From: a virus
Direction: 5' to 3' (one strand)
Length of the DNA: 40,634 nt
Virus record (IMG/VR): IMGVR_UViG_3300025949_000011
Coordinates: 1-40,634 of that record
Below, in pieces: positions 21,299 through 40,634 of this stretch (its first letter is position 1; each line of letters starts with the position of its first letter). The translations under genes and the position numbers were made by a program. The notes under the pieces are model-generated. The model was not told the DNA's origin. It did not search any database and worked only from the letters and a program-made list of their open reading frames with translations.

Positions 21299-21323
21299 AA
21301 AAAGACCCGGCTGTTACACCGGG
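21299..21323 (-). terminator. Terminator-like hairpin abutting a start codon
   Basis: On the minus strand CCCGG-TGTAACAG-CCGGG is followed by TCTTTTT and then immediately by ATG. The stem is only 5 bp but all G/C. It would separate the accessory block and the structured region from the packaging genes. Confidence 0.5.
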
Positions 21324-21602
21324 CTAAGTCATCCTGCCATATTCGGGAGAGGGTTCTTATGGCAAGGCGCGCCGACCGGTAACAACCAATCCAAAGCGCT
21401 AAAAATGGTTGCTCTATGCGCAAAATAGAGCGAATTTGGGCTGCGTTTACTCAGTCTCTCCCGATGTCACTAGTTGAACTGTTTCAGCATGCATTTGGGC
21501 CGCCCGTCTAGTCACTGCCCTAGGTCGCAAAAGTCCCGATGGTTAACCGCCGCGGCGCGAGGGAGATTCATTTTTACCAAAATGCTCATGTAAAGGCAAG
21601 GA
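21324..21602. other. Non-coding region with nested inverted repeats upstream of packaging genes
   Basis: No gene is seen here. CGGGAGAG (21344-21351) pairs with CTCTCCCG (21456-21463) and encloses CAACCA/TGGTTG and the perfect hairpin GCTCTAT-gcgcaaa-ATAGAGC. The octamer TCCCGATG occurs twice (near 21460 and 21535), and the GC-rich palindrome CCGCCGCGGCG lies near 21550. Candidates are a packaging site (cos/pac) for the terminase encoded just downstream, a structured RNA, or a regulatory leader. All base pairs are Watson-Crick, so the strand cannot be decided. Confidence 0.6.
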
Positions 21603-21800
21603 TTATCCTACGCTATATGGCTGGATAGAAAGCGGGATTTCATACCATTTGAAGCCACAATTATTACAAGTTCTTTCCATTTTATCTGGAATCTCTATAG
21701 GAAGACGACCATGACCGCCATATTCCTTTGGTAGCCATCTGGTTGCACACATCCCGCAGCCGCATTTCTCGCACTTTGATTCTGAATCATATTTTTTCAT
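21603..21800 (-). CDS. Small zinc-ribbon protein (65 aa)
   Basis: From the ATG at 21800 the protein has a cysteine set CEKCGCGMC near the start and CNNCGFKWYE near the end, which together look like one zinc ribbon around a Gly/Pro-rich middle. It starts 1 nt after the previous stop. The role is unknown. Confidence 0.6.
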   Translation of the reverse strand: MKKYDSESKCEKCGCGMCATRWLPKEYGGHGRLPIEIPDKMERTCNNCGFKWYEIPLSIQPYSVG

Positions 21801-28463: not shown

Positions 28464-28532
28464 CTATGAGCCTTGGGACGCCCCACTATTCTGAATCTGT
28501 GCCGATGCATAGCTCTTGTCTGTTATCGTCAT
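28464..28532 (-). CDS. Possible 22-residue peptide with a very strong ribosome-binding site
   Basis: AGGAGGTGAAAGG immediately precedes an ATG followed by 22 sense codons and TAG. The ribosome-binding site is the strongest in the window, yet the frame lies fully inside the region proposed to encode a plus-strand RNA, so it may be coincidental. Confidence 0.25.
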   Translation of the reverse strand: MTITDKSYASAQIQNSGASQGS

Positions 28533-28875
28533 CCTTTCACCTCCTGGTACTAGGACAGTCCCCACCAGCAGTTCTGCACTACGGGCTTGCGTCTCAAAAA
28601 ACGTTTTTGACCCCCGTTTCGGCACAGGAATCAACCTACGGCTCACATAGGTGACAAAAGCAGCTACTTTTCTGGCGGACCCCGATAGCAAACGGGTACG
28701 ACTACGCGCGCCTTGGCGGGTTACAAGGCGTGCAGACTGATAGAAGGGGTTGCGGCTAGGGCAGGATGCCATTAGAATTTGGCTATCCGGGTGACTAGTG
28801 CTTTTAGTTACCTTCAGGGCAGTCGAGGTTAGCGCCTCGCAACACTGAGCCGCTTCAACAGCGGCTTTTTGTTTT
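28470..28875 (+). ncRNA. Candidate structured non-coding RNA, antisense to surrounding operon
   Basis: No supported gene lies in this region. On the plus strand I can pair 28594-28600/28604-28610, 28681-28684/28693-28696, 28706-28714/28725-28733 (9 bp, one G.U), 28764-28771/28780-28788 (8 bp, one bulge), 28790-28797/28805-28812 (8 bp, one G.U) and 28824-28828/28835-28839, ending in an intrinsic terminator. The G.U pairs would be A.C mismatches on the other strand, which points to plus-strand transcription. The 5' end is not defined. Known phage RNAs found near tRNA genes (GOLLD, ROOL) are possible relatives, but I cannot confirm this. Confidence 0.55.
28848..28875 (+). terminator. Intrinsic terminator on the plus strand
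   Basis: AGCCGC-TTCAACA-GCGGCT is followed by TTTTGTTTT on the plus strand. There is no U-run on the minus side, so it acts on plus-strand transcription although the flanking genes are on the minus strand. Confidence 0.8.
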
Positions 28876-28927
28876 ATATCACTGTCAGTTATTCCTGACA
28901 AGCGAAATGTGCGTTGGCTGATTGTCA

Positions 28928-29001
28928 TGGCTGGCGAATCAGGACTCGAACCTGAATTAGCGATGTCAAAGACCGCTGTCCTACCATTAGACGATTCGCC
29001 A
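28928..29001 (-). tRNA. tRNA-Gln (anticodon TTG), CCA encoded
   Basis: A full cloverleaf: acceptor TGGCGAA/TTCGCCA, D arm GTCT...AGGAC, anticodon stem GCGGT/ATCGC around loop CTTTGAC (anticodon TTG), T arm TCAGG-TTCGAGT-CCTGA, discriminator G and encoded CCA. It lies 4 nt after the tRNA-Gly. Confidence 0.93.
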
Positions 29002-29005
29002 ATAT

Positions 29006-29080
29006 TGGAGCGGCATGAGAGATTTGAACTCTCGACCCTATGGATGGAAGCCATATGCTCTACCACTGAGCTAATGCCGC
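29006..29080 (-). tRNA. tRNA-Gly (anticodon TCC), CCA encoded
   Basis: A full cloverleaf: acceptor GCGGCAT/ATGCCGC, D arm GCTC...GAGC, anticodon stem TATGG/CCATA around CTTCCAT (anticodon TCC), T arm GAGAG-TTCAAAT-CTCTC, discriminator T and encoded CCA. Its 5' part overlaps the end of a small membrane-protein gene. Confidence 0.93.
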
Positions 29081-31051: not shown

Positions 31052-31371
31052 TCCCACCTTAAGCTTAGTCGAATGTCATTAATGCCTCTATCCTTACCTG
31101 TAGCAATGCTGCTTTCATGGCGAACAGCAATGCCTACCTTGTATCTATTTACATTCCATTGGTAACCCAACATGACGCTAGCATAGGGGTTTTTCGTATA
31201 GTTAACATCGTACATGCGCCACATATTGAGCTTATAAGGCTTATTATCAATAGTGATATCGCAGTCTGGAAGCTGTGACAGCTGTTGACGTGCGCTTAAT
31301 GCTACTTCAGCGAATGGCCCTGCATAGGCAGAGGCTGCCAGTAGGGATAGTAGAAGTATTCGTTTGATCAT
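31048..31371 (-). CDS. Secreted outer-membrane-like protein (107 aa)
   Basis: The N-terminus MIKRILLLSLLAASAYAGPF is a signal peptide with an AYA cleavage site near residue 17. The C-terminal half has alternating hydrophobic strands (SVMLGYQWNVNRYKVGIAVRHESS, INDIRLSLRWE) like a small beta-barrel or its fragment, ending in an aromatic-charged pair. It may alter the cell surface (for example to block other phages); that is inference from the signal peptide and position. Confidence 0.55.
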   Translation of the reverse strand: MIKRILLLSLLAASAYAGPFAEVALSARQQLSQLPDCDITIDNKPYKLNMWRMYDVNYTKNPYASVMLGYQWNVNRYKVGIAVRHESSIATGKDRGINDIRLSLRWE

Positions 31372-31847
31372 TTCTTTCTCCTTTTTAAATGTGGGTTATC
31401 ATCATAACCATGCTTAACTAGCGATATGAAAGGCTCTCCCCTGCCACGCTTCATATTGCATGGAACGCATACAGGATCAACAATTAAAGGCTGCCTATAA
31501 TCTCTATGGTCGTATTGCATAGCCTGATCGCCGCAATCGGCGCATTTTAATGTTTTGGCATTCGGCAACTCTCCGCGCCTAATGGCTAGGCCAACCTTCC
31601 CAGTAGCCCGACTAATAATCCTAGAATAATAAACATAGCATGTTGGGCATTTTCCGCCTGATTTCCTAGTTGCCGCCTTCTTGCTAATCCATCTCTTTTT
31701 CCCGCATAGTCCGCATGCAACATGGACCCTGCATTCGCTAGGAACATTCGTATATTGACAAAGTTCCATATATTCAATCCATGAATTGATCTCTCCCCAG
31801 CTCTTCGGAGGAGCTAACTCCATAAACCATTCATATATTGTTCTCAT
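31368..31847 (-). CDS. HNH-like zinc-binding protein (159 aa)
   Basis: Two CxxC pairs (CGLC, CPTC) precede a second module LKCADCGDQAMQYDHRDYRQPLIVDPVCVPCNMKRG, which has the CxxC...DH...CxxCN layout of HNH-type zinc-finger nucleases in phages. The second catalytic His is not obvious, so nuclease activity is uncertain. Its start overlaps the HTH gene stop as ATGA, placing it second in the minus-strand transcript. Confidence 0.65.
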   Translation of the reverse strand: MRTIYEWFMELAPPKSWGEINSWIEYMELCQYTNVPSECRVHVACGLCGKKRWISKKAATRKSGGKCPTCYVYYSRIISRATGKVGLAIRRGELPNAKTLKCADCGDQAMQYDHRDYRQPLIVDPVCVPCNMKRGRGEPFISLVKHGYDDNPHLKRRKK

Positions 31848-32017
31848 CTCTTAACCTTTAACAGTTTTTCCAGTGTTGGAATGCTTGGCAGACTTTTCCC
31901 TTTACGGATACTCCATAAGGTGCGCTCGGCAACCTTTGATTTATATGCAATGGCAGCTATCTGCTTTGTGTTACACGATTCTAGCCACGTGCGAAGCTCT
32001 TGTATTTGTTTCAGCAT
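31844..32017 (-). CDS. Minimal helix-turn-helix regulator (57 aa)
   Basis: The frame MLKQIQELRTWLESCNTKQ continues with IAAIAYKSKVAERTLWSIRK and then GKSLPSIPTLEKLLKVKR. Residues 19-38 form the helix-turn-helix (QIAAIAYKSKVAERTLWSIR), with a Cro/XRE-like continuation. It is the first gene of the minus-strand unit, next to the divergent promoters, so it is the natural candidate to control them. The ATG starts exactly where transcription is predicted to begin, so no ribosome-binding site is present; lambda cI transcribed from PRM is a precedent for such leaderless mRNA. Confidence 0.7.
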   Translation of the reverse strand: MLKQIQELRTWLESCNTKQIAAIAYKSKVAERTLWSIRKGKSLPSIPTLEKLLKVKR

Positions 32018-32023
32018 GGGATA

Positions 32024-32052
32024 ACTCTAGCAGATCAAAATAGTTGTTGCAA
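32024..32052 (-). promoter_or_regulatory. Minus-strand promoter (HTH gene), sharing its -35 with the opposite promoter
   Basis: On the minus strand TTGCAA (32052-32047) is followed by a 17-nt spacer and TAGAGT (32029-32024). The predicted start is at 32017, the A of the HTH start codon. Confidence 0.6.
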
Positions 32053-32075
32053 GCTGTTTCAGTATGCAGTAGAGT
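32047..32075 (+). promoter_or_regulatory. Plus-strand promoter (early operon), sharing its -35 with the opposite promoter
   Basis: TTGCAA (32047-32052), a 17-nt spacer and TAGAGT (32070-32075). The predicted start near 32082 leaves an 18-nt leader containing TAGGAGA before the ATG at 32100. Confidence 0.6.
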
Positions 32076-32099
32076 TCGCTAACCAACTAGGAGATAGTC

Positions 32100-32255
32100 A
32101 TGAAAGAAATAATTGGAATAGCAGCGATATTGGTAGTATTACTATTAGTTGTAATTTGCTTTGGATTTGGACGATCATCTGTTGTTCATGATTGTCAACA
32201 CTTGGGGCGATTCTATGAAGATCAAAAGGTGTATGAATGCAAGGAGCAGAAATGA
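32100..32255 (+). CDS. Small membrane protein (51 aa), first gene of plus operon
   Basis: Residues 4-24 are one hydrophobic helix (IIGIAAILVVLLLVVICFGFG), followed by a hydrophilic tail with two cysteines. TAGGAGATAGTC precedes the ATG, and the stop overlaps the next start. Not recognised; it resembles small phage inner-membrane proteins. Confidence 0.65.
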   Translation: MKEIIGIAAILVVLLLVVICFGFGRSSVVHDCQHLGRFYEDQKVYECKEQK

Positions 32256-32506
32256 ACGTATTTGAACAAGCACAAGTCCGCTTACTCATCAACCTGCGTG
32301 CTGTGGGAAGACCTAAATATGATAATAGACGGCTGGGTAATCAGATGGACTGGATCGTTGATAACTTCACTGCTGCAAAGCGTTACTATCATGCGCTCGG
32401 TGAAGTGCTAGATAATCAGTGGGACAAAGAGGCTACTGCATTCTGTAAATGTCAGTACGATCAACAAGTGTTAGCAAGAGAAAACAAGAGACTGGAGGCG
32501 GTATGA
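32252..32506 (+). CDS. Small helical protein (84 aa)
   Basis: The start at 32252 (MNVFEQAQ) is fixed by an ATGA overlap. Predicted all-helical, Gln/Arg-rich. Unknown function. Confidence 0.6.
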   Translation: MNVFEQAQVRLLINLRAVGRPKYDNRRLGNQMDWIVDNFTAAKRYYHALGEVLDNQWDKEATAFCKCQYDQQVLARENKRLEAV

Positions 32507-32646
32507 TCGTTTACAAAGATTGGGAATCATTGAAAAAGCGGAAGGGTAAATTCTCTGGGCATGATCGCTATTACTATCAAGGATTTTTCTTGCTTGGAAT
32601 ATTCCCGCTTTATATCCGCAGGTATTATAAAGGGCCAACAGAATGA
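32503..32646 (+). CDS. Small basic aromatic protein (47 aa)
   Basis: The start at 32503 (MIVYKDWESLKKRKGK) follows GGAGGCGGT and overlaps the previous stop. The C-terminal half is Tyr/Phe/Leu-rich (YYYQGFFLLGIFPLYIRRYY) and could dip into a membrane. Unknown. Confidence 0.55.
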   Translation: MIVYKDWESLKKRKGKFSGHDRYYYQGFFLLGIFPLYIRRYYKGPTE

Positions 32647-32894
32647 AAGATCGTAAAGACCACTCCCCCGACTTCACTGCTCCAGATGACGAACGCCCTC
32701 AGTTCAGTACGCTGCCATTTGAGAAGCAGCAAGAGATTATTTGTGATATTGCTAGGGAACGTCCTTTGCATTATCACTATTGCACTACCGAAGCCATCTC
32801 CCAAATGAAACCAGATAGCACTGTAAGCGACCTGCTCAATTACATTGCGAGATGCATAGCTAACAATTACGAGCAAGAGGAGTGGACAATATGA
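32643..32894 (+). CDS. Small acidic protein (83 aa)
   Basis: A helical protein with an acidic N-terminus (DRKDHSPDFTAPDDERPQF). ATGA-coupled to both neighbours. Unknown function. Confidence 0.55.
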   Translation: MKDRKDHSPDFTAPDDERPQFSTLPFEKQQEIICDIARERPLHYHYCTTEAISQMKPDSTVSDLLNYIARCIANNYEQEEWTI

Positions 32895-33181
32895 CAATTT
32901 CACAACATCACAAAAATATATTACAGGCCATGATTGATGATAAGTTTATAGAACTTCAATCAAGTAATGGAAAGTGGGTTACATCGCGTTATCAGGATGC
33001 ATATAAATTCCTTCAAGATGGGCTATTTGAAAGAATTCGCATCAAGCCAGAACCAAAGCGGTTGTATAGCAAAATGGGGGATGATCGCTATATTGCATTT
33101 GGCGCCCCCATGGAGGGCGATACGCATTACATCGACATCCTTGACGGCGATATCGTCGGGTTTGGCAAGGTGGAGAAATAA
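32891..33181 (+). CDS. Unknown protein (96 aa)
   Basis: The start at 32891 (MTISQHHKNIL) gives an ATGA overlap. It reads as a small winged-helix-like alpha/beta protein (ILQAMIDDKFIELQSSNGKWVTSRYQDAYKFLQDGLFERIRIKPEPKR). Function not known. Confidence 0.55.
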   Translation: MTISQHHKNILQAMIDDKFIELQSSNGKWVTSRYQDAYKFLQDGLFERIRIKPEPKRLYSKMGDDRYIAFGAPMEGDTHYIDILDGDIVGFGKVEK

Positions 33182-33182
33182 T

Positions 33183-33353
33183 ATGGAGCCAGAAATCCTT
33201 AACGACATCGACCTGCGAAACAAAGAGAACTACGAAGCATGGCGCAGGAAGTGGCTAGAGCATACTGAAACCAAGTGCGGGGAGTGGGTTCAGTATAAAG
33301 AGAATCCTGTTTTTGAAGTTCCAGCATACCTGCGTAATTTAGGTGCGTTATGA
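33183..33353 (+). CDS. Small protein (56 aa)
   Basis: MEPEILNDIDLRNKENYEAW continues RRKWLEHTETKCGEWVQYKE. It is coupled to the next gene by an ATGA overlap. Unknown. Confidence 0.55.
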   Translation: MEPEILNDIDLRNKENYEAWRRKWLEHTETKCGEWVQYKENPVFEVPAYLRNLGAL

Positions 33354-33523
33354 ACTGGTATCAACAGCAAGAACAGAGTAGACAGCAATTGGAAGAGATG
33401 CTTCGCAAAATGGAAGGCGAAGTCGAGCAAGGGCGAGTGATTAGGAAAAACGCTTTACAGCAAATTATTGAAACTGAAAAGGTAATGAAACATGAAATTC
33501 GGACAAATGAAACCTCCTTCTAA
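33350..33523 (+). CDS. Small Gln/Glu-rich helical protein (57 aa)
   Basis: MNWYQQQEQSRQQLEEMLRK followed by a charged helix; it overlaps the SSB-like gene by 32 nt. The overlap is unusually long for this operon, so the C-terminal end or the gene itself is less certain. Confidence 0.5.
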   Translation: MNWYQQQEQSRQQLEEMLRKMEGEVEQGRVIRKNALQQIIETEKVMKHEIRTNETSF

Positions 33524-33899
33524 ATACTTAACCAAAGAAGACGCAGACCCAAAGAAACTGGTAACGATTCGTAAGTTCGCGATGGAGACCATTGAAGGCC
33601 GCGGCAAGGCAGATGACAAATGGGTTGTTTATTTCAATGAATTTGAAAAAGGAATGGTACTAAATCCAACCAATCAAAAGCTAATGTTGATGGCACTTGG
33701 ACTTACTGCGGATTCAGACACTAATGATGCTATCGGTAAAAAGATCGTGATCTTCAATGATCCGTCCGTGCAAGACCTTAACGGCGAGTTGGTGGGGGGT
33801 ATTCGTATTCGCAAATATAACCCATCTCCAAATGCTCAGCCGACGCAATCCGCGCCGCCACCTACTGAGCCAACGTTTGACGATGATATTCCATTCTAA
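33492..33899 (+). CDS. SSB-like phage protein with DDDIPF tail (135 aa)
   Basis: The core YLTKEDADPKKLVTIRKFAM ... KWVVYFNEFEKGMVLNPTNQKLMLMALG ... IGKKIVIFNDPSVQDLNGELVGGIRIRKY is a phage family whose layout fits an OB-fold. A Pro/Thr/Gln-rich linker leads to the C-terminal DDDIPF. E. coli SSB ends in MDFDDDIPF, the hook that recruits host replication and repair enzymes, so the shared tail suggests that this protein recruits the same partners. Single-strand binding itself is inferred, not shown. Confidence 0.7.
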   Translation: MKFGQMKPPSKYLTKEDADPKKLVTIRKFAMETIEGRGKADDKWVVYFNEFEKGMVLNPTNQKLMLMALGLTADSDTNDAIGKKIVIFNDPSVQDLNGELVGGIRIRKYNPSPNAQPTQSAPPPTEPTFDDDIPF

Positions 33900-33908
33900 C
33901 TAACAATG

Positions 33909-33933
33909 GCCGGGGACTGATACCCGGCTTTCT
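33909..33933 (+). terminator. Possible attenuator hairpin
   Basis: GCCGGG-gactgata-CCCGGC is followed by TTTCT, and lies between the SSB-like and Gp157 genes. The U-tract is short, so partial termination is more likely than a full stop; the next gene has its own ribosome-binding site (TGGAGACAAC). Confidence 0.5.
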
Positions 33934-33942
33934 GGAGACAAC

Positions 33943-34440
33943 ATGCTTCCTTCACTTTACACCATTGCGACTGAATACCAGTCCCTTCAAGCGCTCGACA
34001 TTGAGAACATGGACGAGGAATCGTTTCAGGCCGCATTAGAAGCCCTGCAAGGCGATCTAACTGCCAAGGCCACTAATGTCATTGCCTACCAAAAGAACGT
34101 ACAGGCGTTCGCTGATGCGATTAGGACGGCAGCTGAGAACCTTGCAGATCGTGCCAAGATCGTACAGAACAAAGCCGATAGCCTACATGACTATATCAAG
34201 CGCTCTATGGACGCCGCTGGCATCACCAAGCTGGAGGGGGTTGAGTTTGTCGCCCGCATCCAAAACAACCCGCCAGCCGTCATTATAGACGCTGGTGCAG
34301 TGGTTCCTGACGAGTTCATGACAATCCCGCCACAGCCCGAACCTTACCCGAACAAAACCGCTTTGAAAGACGCACTAAAAGCTGGCAAGGTCATTGATGG
34401 GGTGCGGTTAGAGCAGAAAACAAGGCTCGTCATCAAATGA
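33943..34440 (+). CDS. Gp157-family phage protein (165 aa)
   Basis: The order of segments matches the siphovirus Gp157 family: LYTIATEYQSLQALD, then a long helical middle (KATNVIAYQKNVQAFADAIRTAAENLADRAKIVQNKADSLHDYIKRSMDAAG), then KLEGVEFVARIQNNPPAVIID and PNKTALKDALKAGKVIDGVRLEQKTRLVIK. The family is common in phages; its members are linked to nucleotide or DNA metabolism by position only. Confidence 0.75.
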   Translation: MLPSLYTIATEYQSLQALDIENMDEESFQAALEALQGDLTAKATNVIAYQKNVQAFADAIRTAAENLADRAKIVQNKADSLHDYIKRSMDAAGITKLEGVEFVARIQNNPPAVIIDAGAVVPDEFMTIPPQPEPYPNKTALKDALKAGKVIDGVRLEQKTRLVIK

Positions 34441-34916
34441 CCGAAATCTGCTTTATCCGACACCCGCGTTTCCTTCTGCCCGCCGATGACATGGCGCTGG
34501 ACGTGTTCAATACATGGAAGCTTGGAGCAGTGATTAATGCGGATTATAAGCAAATGCGCAATGGGGCGTATTTCCGTAAGTGGTGGGCAATGGTCAATTT
34601 CGCTTATGAATATTGGGCTGATACGTGCGAGCCGATAGAATACAAGGGCAAGCCTATCCAGCCGAACCTAGATCGATTCAGGCGAGACTTGACCATATTG
34701 GCAGGCCATTATGTACCCGTCTGGAACATCAAGGGAGAGATGCGTATAGAGCCTGAATCATTGAAGTGGTCGAGCATGTCAGAAGAACGATTTGACAAGC
34801 TTTATCAAAGTACATTTTTTTATCTATTGCGTGAAGTGTTTAACGGCAAGCGAGCGATAAAGATGTCAGAGTCACAGCTATCGCATGCGCTGGAATCATT
34901 GGAGCAATTTGGATGA
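34437..34916 (+). CDS. DUF1367-family protein (159 aa)
   Basis: FLLPADDMALDVFNTWKLGAVINADYKQMRNGAYFRKWWAMVNFAYEYW matches the opening of DUF1367 phage proteins, which occur in replication and recombination neighbourhoods. The middle (DRFRRDLTILAGHYVPVWNIKGEMRIEPESLKWSSMSEERF) is also typical. Function is not established. The stop is followed by an ATGA start of the Ref-like nuclease. Confidence 0.7.
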   Translation: MTEICFIRHPRFLLPADDMALDVFNTWKLGAVINADYKQMRNGAYFRKWWAMVNFAYEYWADTCEPIEYKGKPIQPNLDRFRRDLTILAGHYVPVWNIKGEMRIEPESLKWSSMSEERFDKLYQSTFFYLLREVFNGKRAIKMSESQLSHALESLEQFG

Positions 34917-35233
34917 GCTACACAAAGGCAGACGAGGCCCGCATTGATAAGTTTAGAAAGATAGGTTGCATTGTTAGTCATATCTATTTTGGCGAGTACG
35001 AAGATTATGATGTGCATCACATTACCAGTGGTGGTAGGCGCATGGGCAACCAATACACAATACCACTTTCGCCTTGGTTGCATCGTGGAGTGGTTAAAAC
35101 TGGACTGAGCGAAGATGAATGTAACGAGCTATTCGGCCCATCGCTGGCGCATAGCAAAAAGGCTTTCATCGCAAGATTTGGAACTGAGTTAGAGCTACTT
35201 GCCCGTGTAAATGAATTAATAGGTGAAAAATGA
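34913..35233 (+). CDS. Ref-like RecA-dependent nuclease (106 aa)
   Basis: CIVSHIYFGEYEDYDVHHITSGGRRMGNQYTIPLSPWLHRGV contains the HH-I-x-S-G-G-R-R and PL-x-P-x-x-H signature of phage Ref-type HNH nucleases, which in P1 cut DNA at RecA filaments. Catalytic histidines are visible (the HH pair and the His in WLHRG). It is likely to act in recombination or DNA degradation. Confidence 0.75.
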   Translation: MSYTKADEARIDKFRKIGCIVSHIYFGEYEDYDVHHITSGGRRMGNQYTIPLSPWLHRGVVKTGLSEDECNELFGPSLAHSKKAFIARFGTELELLARVNELIGEK

Positions 35234-35349
35234 AACTGCTCGAAATGACTTTATTGTTTCCGTTTATGGTTATTGGATTTATATGCCATCGTATTTATCA
35301 AGCTTGGCGTGTAGGTAAGGAATTTTCAAAATATTTGGAGCTGTTATGA
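35230..35349 (+). CDS. Small membrane protein (39 aa)
   Basis: MKLLEMTLLFPFMVIGFICH starts a short transmembrane protein with a basic tail (RIYQAWRVGKEF). ATGA overlaps at both ends. Unknown. Confidence 0.55.
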   Translation: MKLLEMTLLFPFMVIGFICHRIYQAWRVGKEFSKYLELL

Positions 35350-36083
35350 ACAAAGATAAATTTATAGAATATTCACTAGCCATTAAGGACTGCGTAAGAG
35401 CTGCGCCGGTACAACAGTTTGTTGCTGATATTGCAGACGAAGCCGCCGACTTCCTCGCATCCCTCTCCGACATGGGGGATGAGCCTGATGATCGGGAAAC
35501 AGACGCAGTGGTAATGAATGACGATGAAGAGCCTATTGTTGTTCGGTGTGTAGCGAGAGCAAACCGAGATTGGTACATTAAACAGCTAGCAGCAACGAAG
35601 CTTCAATTAGAAGAGGCTTGCGAGACTAGTTACAATGCAAGTGCCTCATGGCTTGAAGCAAAGCGACAGCTAGCAGCAACGAAGCTGGAGCTTGAGGAAT
35701 TGCATGCTGAAAATATGTGTGATGCCTGTGGCGGTAATGGGAATCCAGTTAGCGGATTTCCATGTATGTGCGGCGGCTCTGGAAAAGCCTCTGATGCCGT
35801 TCAGCACTTACGCAAAGAGCTAGACGAGGCGAAGCGCAGGATTGCTGATTTGAGCGATCAGGTTTATGTATCGAATAATGATCCAGCCTATAAGGTGACT
35901 ATTAGAGACAATGCTGGCACGTACGATTATGAGAAAGGCAGAGGCCAACCAAAGCAACCGGCGGTGCTTACGCCTGAGCAGTTTGATGAATTAGAAGGCG
36001 CTTTATGGGCGGCGCTCAGAAAAGATAGTGCTGCATTGGCTAGCTTTATTAAACGCCTTGAAAAGCTCTTGGTGAAGCCATGA
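35346..36083 (+). CDS. Coiled-coil protein with DnaJ-like zinc motif (245 aa)
   Basis: An acidic N-terminus leads into a coiled coil with an internal duplication (QLAATKLQLEE and QLAATKLELEE, 28 residues apart). Then comes CDACGGNGNPVSGFPCMCGGSG, a CxxCxGxG ... CxCGGSG pair like the zinc repeats of DnaJ or of phage zinc-ribbon proteins, followed by a second helix and a hydrophobic end. The function is unknown; a chaperone-like or scaffold role is possible. Confidence 0.6.
   Translation: MNKDKFIEYSLAIKDCVRAAPVQQFVADIADEAADFLASLSDMGDEPDDRETDAVVMNDDEEPIVVRCVARANRDWYIKQLAATKLQLEEACETSYNASASWLEAKRQLAATKLELEELHAENMCDACGGNGNPVSGFPCMCGGSGKASDAVQHLRKELDEAKRRIADLSDQVYVSNNDPAYKVTIRDNAGTYDYEKGRGQPKQPAVLTPEQFDELEGALWAALRKDSAALASFIKRLEKLLVKP
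35583..35686 (+). repeat. Internal direct repeat (20 bp, 84 bp apart)
   Basis: The 20-mer starting CAGCTAGCAGCAACGAAG occurs at 35583-35602 and 35667-35686. The period of 84 bp is 28 codons (four heptads), consistent with duplication of a coiled-coil segment. Confidence 0.85.
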
Positions 36084-36265
36084 CCCACTACCCTAACCAA
36101 GAATCTAGCTCTGATGAATGGCGACGTGAAATTGATCATCTAGACGATAGAGACCCTGATGGGTTTTATTATCTAGGTAAGTATAACCCTGACTGGGTTG
36201 GATGTTTAGAGCCAAAAGAGGTGAAAGATGAAAAGCGAGTCATCTGTTTGCCTATCGAAAGCTAG
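36080..36265 (+). CDS. Small protein (61 aa)
   Basis: Acidic and aromatic (REIDHLDDRDPDGFYYLGKYNPDWVGC). Starts in an ATGA overlap and overlaps the next gene by 38 nt. Unknown. Confidence 0.55.
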   Translation: MTHYPNQESSSDEWRREIDHLDDRDPDGFYYLGKYNPDWVGCLEPKEVKDEKRVICLPIES

Positions 36266-36392
36266 ATACTCAACAAAGATAGATGCCGCTGTCAGCGCCA
36301 TTAGATATGGCATAAGGGCTAGACGTAATCTGTATTATTACAAGTGCCCTAGGTGTGGCGGGTATCATTTAACAAAGAAAGTAAGGTATTAA
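36228..36392 (+). CDS. Small zinc-ribbon protein (54 aa)
   Basis: The C-terminal segment NLYYYKCPRCGGYHLT is a typical phage one-pair zinc knuckle, preceded by a basic helix (SAIRYGIRARR). The role is unknown. Confidence 0.6.
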   Translation: MKSESSVCLSKARYSTKIDAAVSAIRYGIRARRNLYYYKCPRCGGYHLTKKVRY

Positions 36393-36393
36393 A

Positions 36394-36654
36394 ATGAAAT
36401 GTACTGCGTGCGGTAAGAAAGCTGGATGTATTGACTCAAGAGAGCGAGAGCATTCACGATGGAGAAGATATTCTTGTGAATGCGGATTCAGGTTCAATAC
36501 ACTAGAGATGGTTGAGAATATTGATAACTTGGATGACATATCTGATCTAGCAAAAAATGCAAGAATGGATAAGACGAGGCGTAAATGGATTGAAGTTGGA
36601 AAAACTCTTGCCAAGAAAGAAATTAGAGATTTACTGAATATTGGAGACAACTAA
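36394..36654 (+). CDS. NrdR-like zinc-ribbon protein (86 aa)
   Basis: MKCTACGKKAGCIDSREREH followed by RRYSCECGFRFNTLEMVE is close to the N-terminal zinc ribbon of NrdR (CxxC...DSR...RRR..C..C..RFTT.E). The ATP-cone of NrdR is missing; a short helical tail replaces it. NrdR represses ribonucleotide reductase genes in bacteria, so interference with or mimicry of that regulator is possible but untested. Confidence 0.6.
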   Translation: MKCTACGKKAGCIDSREREHSRWRRYSCECGFRFNTLEMVENIDNLDDISDLAKNARMDKTRRKWIEVGKTLAKKEIRDLLNIGDN

Positions 36655-36655
36655 T

Positions 36656-36796
36656 ATGATTGAGCAAAAGTTCAATGAAGAAAAGCAGAGTATTGCAGCA
36701 GAGCGTGCAAGGGAATTACGGGAGTGTGCTCACAAGAAAAAAGTGAAGCCGAAAAAGAATAGTCGTAACTGGTGTAATCAGGGGTTTAGAAAATGA
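36656..36796 (+). CDS. Small basic protein (46 aa)
   Basis: MIEQKFNEEKQSIAAERARE continues with a Lys/Arg-rich end containing two Cys (ECAHKKKVKPKKNSRNWCNQ). ATGA overlap with the HNH gene. Unknown. Confidence 0.5.
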   Translation: MIEQKFNEEKQSIAAERARELRECAHKKKVKPKKNSRNWCNQGFRK

Positions 36797-37293
36797 GTAA
36801 GTTCAAAAGGCCAAGGGTTTCGATTGAAAAGCTTAAGGAGCTTCTCTCATATGATCCTGATACTGGGCTTTTTATTTGGAAAATATCCAAGGGGAAAGGA
36901 TACGCAGGAAATGTCGCTGGTAATCAGAACTCTCTCGGCTATCTTGAGACCTCCATAGGAGGAACTCATTATCTTTTGCATCGGTTGGCATGGTTTTATG
37001 TGTATGAAAAATGGCCGGATCAAGATATTGATCACATCAACGGCATTAAATCTGATAATCGCATTTCCAATTTAAGAGACGTTAGCAAAAGCGTTAACAG
37101 GCAAAATCTTAAAAAACCGGTTGCTGGAAATTCTTCAGGAATGCTTGGGGTAATGGCTATTGGAAATAAATTTAGAGCGCAGATTGGCATTGATGGGAAA
37201 CCTACATATTTAGGTCATTTCAATACGCCAGATGAAGCGCATCAAGTCTATCTTGAAGCTAAACGCAAACACCATGAGGGAAATACCCTATGA
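36793..37293 (+). CDS. HNH homing endonuclease with AP2-like domain (166 aa)
   Basis: YDPDTGLFIWKISKGKGYAG opens the HNH part, HRLAWFYVYEKWPDQDIDHINGIKSDNRISNLRDVSKSVNRQN gives the HNH core (H-R-L-A-W ... DHINGIKSDNRISNLR), and the C-terminal region GVMAIGNKFRAQIGIDGKPTYLGHFNTPDEAHQVYLEAKR is an AP2 DNA-binding domain. Free-standing phage homing endonuclease; it is the last gene of the plus operon. Confidence 0.85.
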   Translation: MSKFKRPRVSIEKLKELLSYDPDTGLFIWKISKGKGYAGNVAGNQNSLGYLETSIGGTHYLLHRLAWFYVYEKWPDQDIDHINGIKSDNRISNLRDVSKSVNRQNLKKPVAGNSSGMLGVMAIGNKFRAQIGIDGKPTYLGHFNTPDEAHQVYLEAKRKHHEGNTL

Positions 37294-39544: not shown

Positions 39545-40634
39545 TCATAGATTGCCTTCGCTAGTCCATGTGCCGGGTGTTCCAGCTGTTGTACATCTCC
39601 ATCCTTTTGCGCCGCCAATGGTAGCAGTCCGACGGATAACCGCATCTCCTACTGCCCATGTTCCACTTGCTGGCGCTGCGTCTAATAAATGGAAAGTAAT
39701 AAAACCTCCACTATTATTCATCGTTGCGCCAAAGTAATTCGTCTCATCAAGTGTGCAGTCTGTTCCAGAAAGCGTTATTGATCCGGTTGAATTCGATCTG
39801 AATACATTCCCAGCGCCTCTTAGTTTGGTGATATTAGAGGCGTATAAAGGGTCTGATAGATTGCTTACGAATGTATTTCCAGTCATTGCCACATGTGTCA
39901 TGTAATTTATTGCAGCAGCTCTCTTGCTTGCTGCGCTGACATACACATTATTTCCAGTAATAGTATATTCTTCGTGAGCGCCAGTTGATGTTCTGTCAAT
40001 TGTAATACCGTCGCCTGCGGTTGACTCTATTGTGTTCCCAATAACTGCAATTCTTAGCATTGTTGGGATAGTTCCGAACACAGCTGTGGATAGGAAATAT
40101 ATCGCCGTTCCAGGTCCTGAGTGGCGGCAAGTATTATGAGATACGGAGCTATATCGGCAATCTGTCATCACAATGCAAGAATCATTGCTTGCAGACGTTT
40201 GATCGTTCTGACAGTCGTTATTTTCAATCTTTATTCCAAAGTAACCGCTAGACGTACCCCTAATGCATGGCCCTTTTAGAGAGTGAACTTGGTTATTTGA
40301 AACCGTAATAGGAGCAGTGCTAACTCCTTGAGTAATACTTGCAGTCAAGCAAGACATCGCCAAGGTAGAAAAGTCAGTGGTGTTGACGCAACAATTGTAA
40401 ATCTGATTGTTGGTGCATATTGCACCACCAGCACCTTGCAGATATATGCCAGCACCAGAAGCGCCGCCAATAGCAGAGCCTAGAATTCCACTAACAACAT
40501 TGCCGGAAATATTAGTTTTGCAGTCGAACCCAGCAGGTGTTCCGGTGGTCGTCGTATATAGCAGAATTCCGTATGCTCTCTTTGCAATAACAACATTATC
40601 ACATACGTTGTTTCCTATCGGCTGCTTACCAACG
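39545..40634 (-). CDS. Tailspike, C-terminal part (continues from 1-1089)
   Basis: The in-frame continuation of the tailspike. It consists of beta-helix rungs (for example NNQVHSLKGPCI, GNTIESTAGDGITID, TITGNNVYVS, MTGNTFVS, GAGNVFRSN), then a C-terminal domain AAPASGTWAVGDAVIRRTATIGGAKGWRCTTAGTPGTWTSEGNL, common at the ends of phage tailspikes. The total length is 683 residues when joined at the 127-bp overlap. Confidence 0.9.
   Translation of the reverse strand, partial: VGKQPIGNNVCDNVVIAKRAYGILLYTTTTGTPAGFDCKTNISGNVVSGILGSAIGGASGAGIYLQGAGGAICTNNQIYNCCVNTTDFSTLAMSCLTASITQGVSTAPITVSNNQVHSLKGPCIRGTSSGYFGIKIENNDCQNDQTSASNDSCIVMTDCRYSSVSHNTCRHSGPGTAIYFLSTAVFGTIPTMLRIAVIGNTIESTAGDGITIDRTSTGAHEEYTITGNNVYVSAASKRAAAINYMTHVAMTGNTFVSNLSDPLYASNITKLRGAGNVFRSNSTGSITLSGTDCTLDETNYFGATMNNSGGFITFHLLDAAPASGTWAVGDAVIRRTATIGGAKGWRCTTAGTPGTWTSEGNL
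40508..40634. repeat. Terminal direct repeat (right copy)
   Basis: Exact copy of bases 1-127; see the left copy. Joining removes it and yields a 40,507-bp circle. Confidence 0.95.

Follow-up and report, generated by a model that had tools for sequence, protein, structure and literature searches.

The main divergent junction of this phage probably carries two back-to-back, sigma70-type promoters that share a single palindromic -35 hexamer, and the sequence favors reading the pair as a compact early control point built on a recurrent layout, not as a demonstrated bistable switch. The window, by which is meant the whole of the 40,634-base phage record analyzed here (46% G+C, no Ns), has a 127-bp terminal repeat and represents a ~40.5-kb phage. 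What is new is the recurrence of the shared -35 architecture across phages and bacteria, while overlapping divergent promoters as such were already known. The wider recurrence, especially beside small regulators that face selfish nucleases, is a more interesting result than the single element in which it was first seen.

The shared -35 element and its genomic setting

Leftward genes extend from 32017 to the left end of the record and then, on the circle, from 40.6 kb to 37.3 kb, and the rightward block occupies 32100-37293. Among the genes called, this two-block orientation is broken solely by a doubtful ORF of 65 aa on the plus strand (386-583). The junction itself is the gap at 32018-32099 (82 bp, ~0.2% of the window), which lies between tightly coupled operons on opposite strands (Table 1). 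The initial annotation placed every gene of the phage downstream of one or the other promoter; this is correct for orientation on the circle, bar the doubtful ORF, but separate late promoters are likely because of a terminator-like hairpin and intergenic gaps of 194-304 bp. The hairpin falls within a 304-bp gap ahead of the packaging and structural genes (21305-21603), and those genes are likely to depend on antitermination or on a late promoter of their own. Elsewhere in the leftward block, minus-strand genes for tRNA-Gln(ttg) and tRNA-Gly(tcc) at 28928-29080 overlap a predicted ORF (28464-29054).

Table 1. Features of the divergent junction and its surroundings (window coordinates)
Feature	Position	Strand	Basis
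Terminator-like hairpin between early leftward and packaging/structural genes	21305-21324	-	pattern match alone
159-aa HNH/endonuclease VII-like protein	31368-31847	-	PHROG 2340 endonuclease, E 3e-6; Pfam Endonuclease_7 sub-threshold
57-aa probable HTH (XRE/HTH_3-like) regulator, heads leftward operon	31844-32017	-	profiles, model
Predicted leftward start, A of ATG (leaderless)	32017	-	predicted, 6 nt from -10
Mirror-symmetric element AACTCTA-N17-TTGCAA-N17-TAGAGTT	32023-32076		dyad plot
Leftward -10, TAGAGT	32024-32029	-	spacer 17 (32030-32046); top matrix score in window
Extended -10, TGC (TGn), leftward promoter only	32030-32032	-	sequence
Palindromic -35, TTGCAA, common to both promoters	32047-32052 (centre 32049.5)		sequence
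Rightward -10, TAGAGT	32070-32075	+	spacer 17 (32053-32069), no TGn; matrix rank 8
Predicted rightward start (A), 18-19-nt leader	32081-32082	+	predicted, 5-6 nt from -10
Shine-Dalgarno AGGAG of first rightward gene	32089-32093	+	sequence
51-aa membrane-like protein (PHROG 4568), heads rightward operon	32100-32255	+	hydrophobic N-terminus in translation
Gp157/Gam-like and NinB/Orf recombination genes, rightward operon	33943-34916	+	profile matches

The element had been described as a palindromic TTGCAA with a 17-nt spacer and TAGAGT in either direction, symmetric about 32049.5, and with perfectly inverted arms. These particulars are exact in the sequence and in the dyad plot, where the arms AACTCTA (32023-32029) and TAGAGTT (32070-32076) pair perfectly about that centre. 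Symmetry between the halves is confined to the -35 and to the -10 with a single base flanking it, and there is no notable symmetry elsewhere, so that it belongs to the promoter boxes and not to one long operator. The boxes and spacing of the pair are identical, as the initial annotation had it, but the promoters are not equivalent: only the minus-strand -10 is preceded by TGn, which is why the leftward promoter is predicted to be the stronger. Each promoter matches a simple consensus at 8/12 positions, below a 9/12 filter, and that consensus is sigma70-type and may not be the host's. The layout as defined in this analysis comprises a palindromic -35 read both ways, spacers of 16-18 nt, two flanking -10s and a divergent intergenic gap, all of which are found here.

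Several measures were used to place this arrangement against chance. The pattern TTGCAA-N16-18-TAGAGT has two matches in the window, both in this gap and one on each strand, against 0.03 expected. When the gap was shuffled 20,000 times, a palindromic common -35 with boxes of at least 4/6 and 17/17 spacers arose in 5e-5 of the shuffles, and shuffling of the whole window yielded ~0.03 such pairs per shuffle; the criterion was fixed after the site had been seen. For that reason a scan free of any symmetry assumption was also run, in which all placements on both strands were scored by a sigma70-type matrix with hand-set base frequencies and penalties for spacer length. Among all placements in 40.6 kb the minus promoter ranked first and the plus promoter eighth. 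An equally good shared -35 pair appeared somewhere in 40.6 kb in 9/400 whole-window shuffles by the same matrix, a figure that leaves aside the location of the real pair in the 82-bp main divergent gap.

The leaderless message proposed for the HTH gene is what the position of the minus -10 predicts, this box ending 6 nt short of the A with which the ATG begins. Upstream of this ATG the reading frame is closed by a stop (TAG, 32027-32029), and nothing there makes a convincing Shine-Dalgarno. From these signals the leftward mRNA should be translated leaderlessly and the rightward mRNA normally. In phage PY54 both cI and cro are known to have leaderless mRNAs (PMC4488713).

The HTH identity of the 57-aa protein is supported as probable, through weak profile matches and a structural model. 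The protein scores 14.2 bits against Pfam HTH_3, under the curated cut-off of 23, and matches PHROG transcriptional regulators at E 0.006-0.03. The best single-sequence AlphaFold model (pLDDT 90.6) has four helices, the other four models scoring 57-71, and Foldseek pairs it with the XRE domains of SinR, C-proteins, the AcrIIA15 N-terminus and Aca11 (prob 0.9-1.0, E ~0.1 or more). The endonuclease-like gene follows the HTH gene with a 4-nt overlap, and the presence of both in one operon is reminiscent of controller-protein and regulator-nuclease pairs.

Relatives of this phage are recognizable by their packaging and structural genes, a module held in common with environmental phages (portal 43-60% identical, one gene 86%), and the early region has nearly nothing in common with these structural-gene relatives. 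Protein searches found no close relatives of the HTH, first rightward or endonuclease-like proteins in viral contigs, of the HTH protein in the bacterial genomes searched, or of the endonuclease-like protein in annotated phages, and a DNA search with 30-36 kb gave no match among phages. The relatives' sequence that was examined has no comparable shared -35 pair. At least one structural-gene relative, phage G003, has a CI-like/Cro-like divergent pair (locus L027, 9201-9886), which points to the early control module being swapped among these phages.

Recurrence of the layout in phages and bacteria

Because the early region is without close relatives, the geometry itself was searched for elsewhere. 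The exact double pattern has no second occurrence in the viral contigs by pattern search. The relaxed pattern ANNATA-N17-TTGCAA-N17-TATNNT was scanned over viral contigs, with 80 loci kept among the matches listed, and the identical scan with 22/22 spacers supplied 80 control loci. Divergent gaps, called with a simple gene caller, hold 17/80 of the 17/17 sites and 0/80 of the 22/22 sites among the matches listed (Fisher p=6e-6), or 14/77 versus 0/80 once obvious homologues are removed (p=2e-5, again among the matches listed). In the same phage loci the background share of divergent gaps is 4% for TTGCAA hexamers as a whole and 0.7% for positions. Both arms carry a perfect TATAAT 12 times at 17/17 and once at 22/22, among the matches listed. 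The TGn motif, which lies outside the search pattern, is present on 28/90 arms at divergent sites against 15/160 control arms (p=2e-5, among the matches listed). Owing to this enrichment in divergent gaps, TATAAT and TGn over the controls, the 17/17 shared-TTGCAA sites are judged, from sequence features, to behave like promoters.

Bacterial genomes point in the same direction, with the fractions there, as in phages, being sample values. With the strict pattern, 28/79 sites among the matches listed fall in divergent gaps, against 1.7% of background positions. Within the Clostridia a 17/17 site is found in 7/291 genomes and a 20/20 site in none, and when the spacer is varied over 391 Clostridia genomes, combinations of 16-18/16-18 make up 10/72 among the matches listed versus 2.5 expected, an enrichment that is modest and offers supportive but partial evidence. 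Six loci (L282, L284, L286, L310, L328 and L339) carry a perfect 17/17 shared-TTGCAA element between what is apparently one clostridial gene pair, read by eye as CCA-adding enzyme/poly(A) polymerase versus diacylglycerol kinase (6 of the 28 divergent sites, among the matches listed). This suggests that the layout is conserved between ordinary, apparently housekeeping, clostridial genes.

A different association is seen in phages, where a gene for a 44-54-aa ribbon-helix-helix (RHH) protein starts 17-24 nt past one of the -10s at 12/80 loci among the matches listed. Most of the RHH genes tested match Pfam RHH_3 or RHH_5, one of them under its cut-off. Genes detected with an RHH profile adjoin 11/80 of the 17/17 sites and 0/80 of the control loci among the matches listed, a comparison that is partly circular because the profile was built from the same proteins. 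A test independent of the pattern drew on five RHH_3 homologues from a protein search. The homologue on a Paraclostridium plasmid (L432) has a perfect element, and beside that of Alkalihalophilus (L433) 17/17 spacers separate TTGCAA from TATAAT and TAGTAT. A near-palindromic TTACAA, flanked at 17 nt on either side by TATAAT, was recognized by eye in Peptoclostridium (L431), the script having left it unflagged (forward hexamer 3/6). The two phage homologues (L429 and L430) are without the element.

The gene opposite the RHH gene carries, by Pfam, a GIY-YIG domain in L043 and L112, LAGLIDADG in L079 and HNH in L117 and L068; it is TnpB in L320, with an N-terminal piece of TnpB in L042, and HNH-like in L046 by eye only. 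The partners, homing endonucleases or TnpB, thus come from several unrelated families. Separately, in locus L038 (MW202489.1), a 180-bp CDS at 39992-40171 bears the label of an OXA-58 class D beta-lactamase, for which it is far too short, and this is probably a misannotation. It is possible that the RHH gene, the shared palindromic -35 and the nuclease form a common control module of mobile nucleases, a pairing for which no published description was found in the open-access literature. More broadly, we would tentatively advance, at slightly less than even confidence, that divergent promoters with a palindromic -35 (TTGCAA, 17/17) may be a distinct class that forces a choice of direction on the polymerase, and that mobile DNA has repeatedly coupled this class to a tiny regulator (HTH here, RHH elsewhere) controlling the gene on the other side, in many cases a selfish nuclease (GIY-YIG, HNH, LAGLIDADG or TnpB). 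Its repeated occurrence next to tiny regulators and such nucleases suggests that the layout serves mobile DNA as a control module that comes ready-made.

Control point, switch or coincidence

As a control point, the element would operate through sigma region 4 reading TTGCAA on either strand, such that one polymerase loads to the left or to the right. Leftward loading, dominant by default, would yield a leaderless mRNA for the small HTH protein and then the early left operon, and rightward loading would yield a leadered mRNA for the membrane-like protein and the recombination genes. The most likely place for the HTH protein to bind is the gap or its immediate flank, where it would repress one or both promoters and set the balance between left and right. 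The initial annotation held that the two promoters cannot both hold RNA polymerase; from the geometry, steric exclusion of simultaneous loading in both directions is probable, but the claim is kept at that strength and not as a certainty. Such exclusion would be relevant only when at least one promoter is strong. If the layout does enforce one-way loading, it would be about the smallest directional choice that can be encoded in DNA (52 bp).

The alternative that retains the most weight, though it is rather unlikely, is a bidirectional promoter through which the two early operons are expressed together in balance; the polymerase would alternate between directions, exclusion would be a by-product and the HTH protein would have some other role. 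The presence of the layout between apparent clostridial housekeeping genes fits this, as does the behaviour of E. coli promoters that share a -10, whose two directions begin to compete only on strong activation of one of them, basal activity being free of competition (PMC12825309). Balanced expression is harder to reconcile with the different strength motifs of the two promoters here and with the repeated adjacency of a small DNA-binding regulator to the layout (the 11/80 versus 0/80 among the matches listed).

The initial annotation went further and proposed a mutually exclusive switch, that is, a bistable decision of the lysis/lysogeny type in which the direction is locked jointly by the HTH protein and by exclusion of polymerase, as at lambda PRM/PR. 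Divergent promoters, a small probable HTH regulator, a predicted leaderless message and the CI-like/Cro-like pair of the related phage G003 speak for such a switch. Neither the tyrosine integrase domain (PF00589) nor the serine integrase/resolvase domain (PF00239) was detected in the phage, the positive controls being detected; a plasmid-like lysogen may be formed. The first rightward gene encodes the membrane-like PHROG 4568 protein and not a second repressor, and the HTH gene does not stand alone but is the first of many in an early operon. The best short operator palindromes in the gap are no better than those in shuffles, though a degenerate operator may be present. Exclusion at the binding step alone, moreover, amounts to competition and not to memory. 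The switch is therefore not accepted, on account of the E. coli shared -10 promoters, which compete only once one direction is activated, of the absence of an integrase, second repressor or operator in these searches, and of the use of an identical layout at apparent housekeeping genes, where switching would make little sense, and we regard it as improbable.

There is also little probability that the leftward extended -10 promoter alone is real and the rightward match accidental. The rightward promoter does lack TGn and reaches only 8/12, but it has an identical -10 at an exact 17-nt spacer, ranks eighth in the window and is correctly spaced to a good Shine-Dalgarno, in a gap that offers its operon no better-placed promoter; symmetric pairs also recur in other loci. 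That the 7-bp arms are operator half-sites for the HTH or another regulator, with promoter-like spacing by coincidence, is very improbable, for although AACTCTA/TAGAGTT is a perfect inverted repeat, a small HTH dimer would not usually span half-sites 40 bp apart, TAGAGTT is no commoner in the rest of the window than chance predicts and the arms fall exactly on -10 boxes at optimal spacing.

Comparison with known systems

No published account of a divergent promoter class sharing a -35 was found in the open-access subset of the literature, in which shared -10 or reciprocal boxes are described. The bidirectional promoters of E. coli and Salmonella share a -10 and have starts 7-25 bp apart, typically 18 bp (PMC12825309, PMC10268837). 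The phage element resembles these in its pseudo-symmetric core, to which polymerase would bind in either orientation, and differs in that the -35 is common, the -10s lie outside and the predicted starts are 64-65 bp apart. Assignment to the shared -10 class was accordingly rejected, the predicted starts at 32017 and 32081/32082 lying outside the 7-25 bp range.

A parallel in promoter strength is provided by Pr/Pc of pLS20, which overlap, are divergent and are of unequal strength, the strong one with an extended -10 and a 17-bp spacer (PMC4207663). The proposal for that locus is that one promoter's -10 doubles as the other's -35, and looping between operators has been shown (PMC4207663). Overlapping unequal divergent promoters, an extended -10, a 17-bp spacer and a regulator on one side (Rco in pLS20) are thus features of both systems. 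Here, unlike in pLS20, it is the -35s that coincide, and the regulator lies on the side predicted to be stronger, whereas in pLS20 it lies on the weak side.

Lambda PRM/PR and the cI/cro region of PY54 (PMC4488713) have divergent promoters, an HTH regulator and a leaderless repressor mRNA in common with this phage, for which the last two are predictions. In those regions the -35 boxes are separate, a pair of repressors act against each other and the operators have been identified, none of which was detected in the phage. Further counterparts are the RHH-gene loci of phages, plasmids and bacteria, in which the geometry is identical and one arm drives a DNA-binding protein of ~50 aa. These loci differ in that the regulator is RHH and not HTH, its mRNA is leadered with a Shine-Dalgarno, and its partner is often a selfish nuclease.
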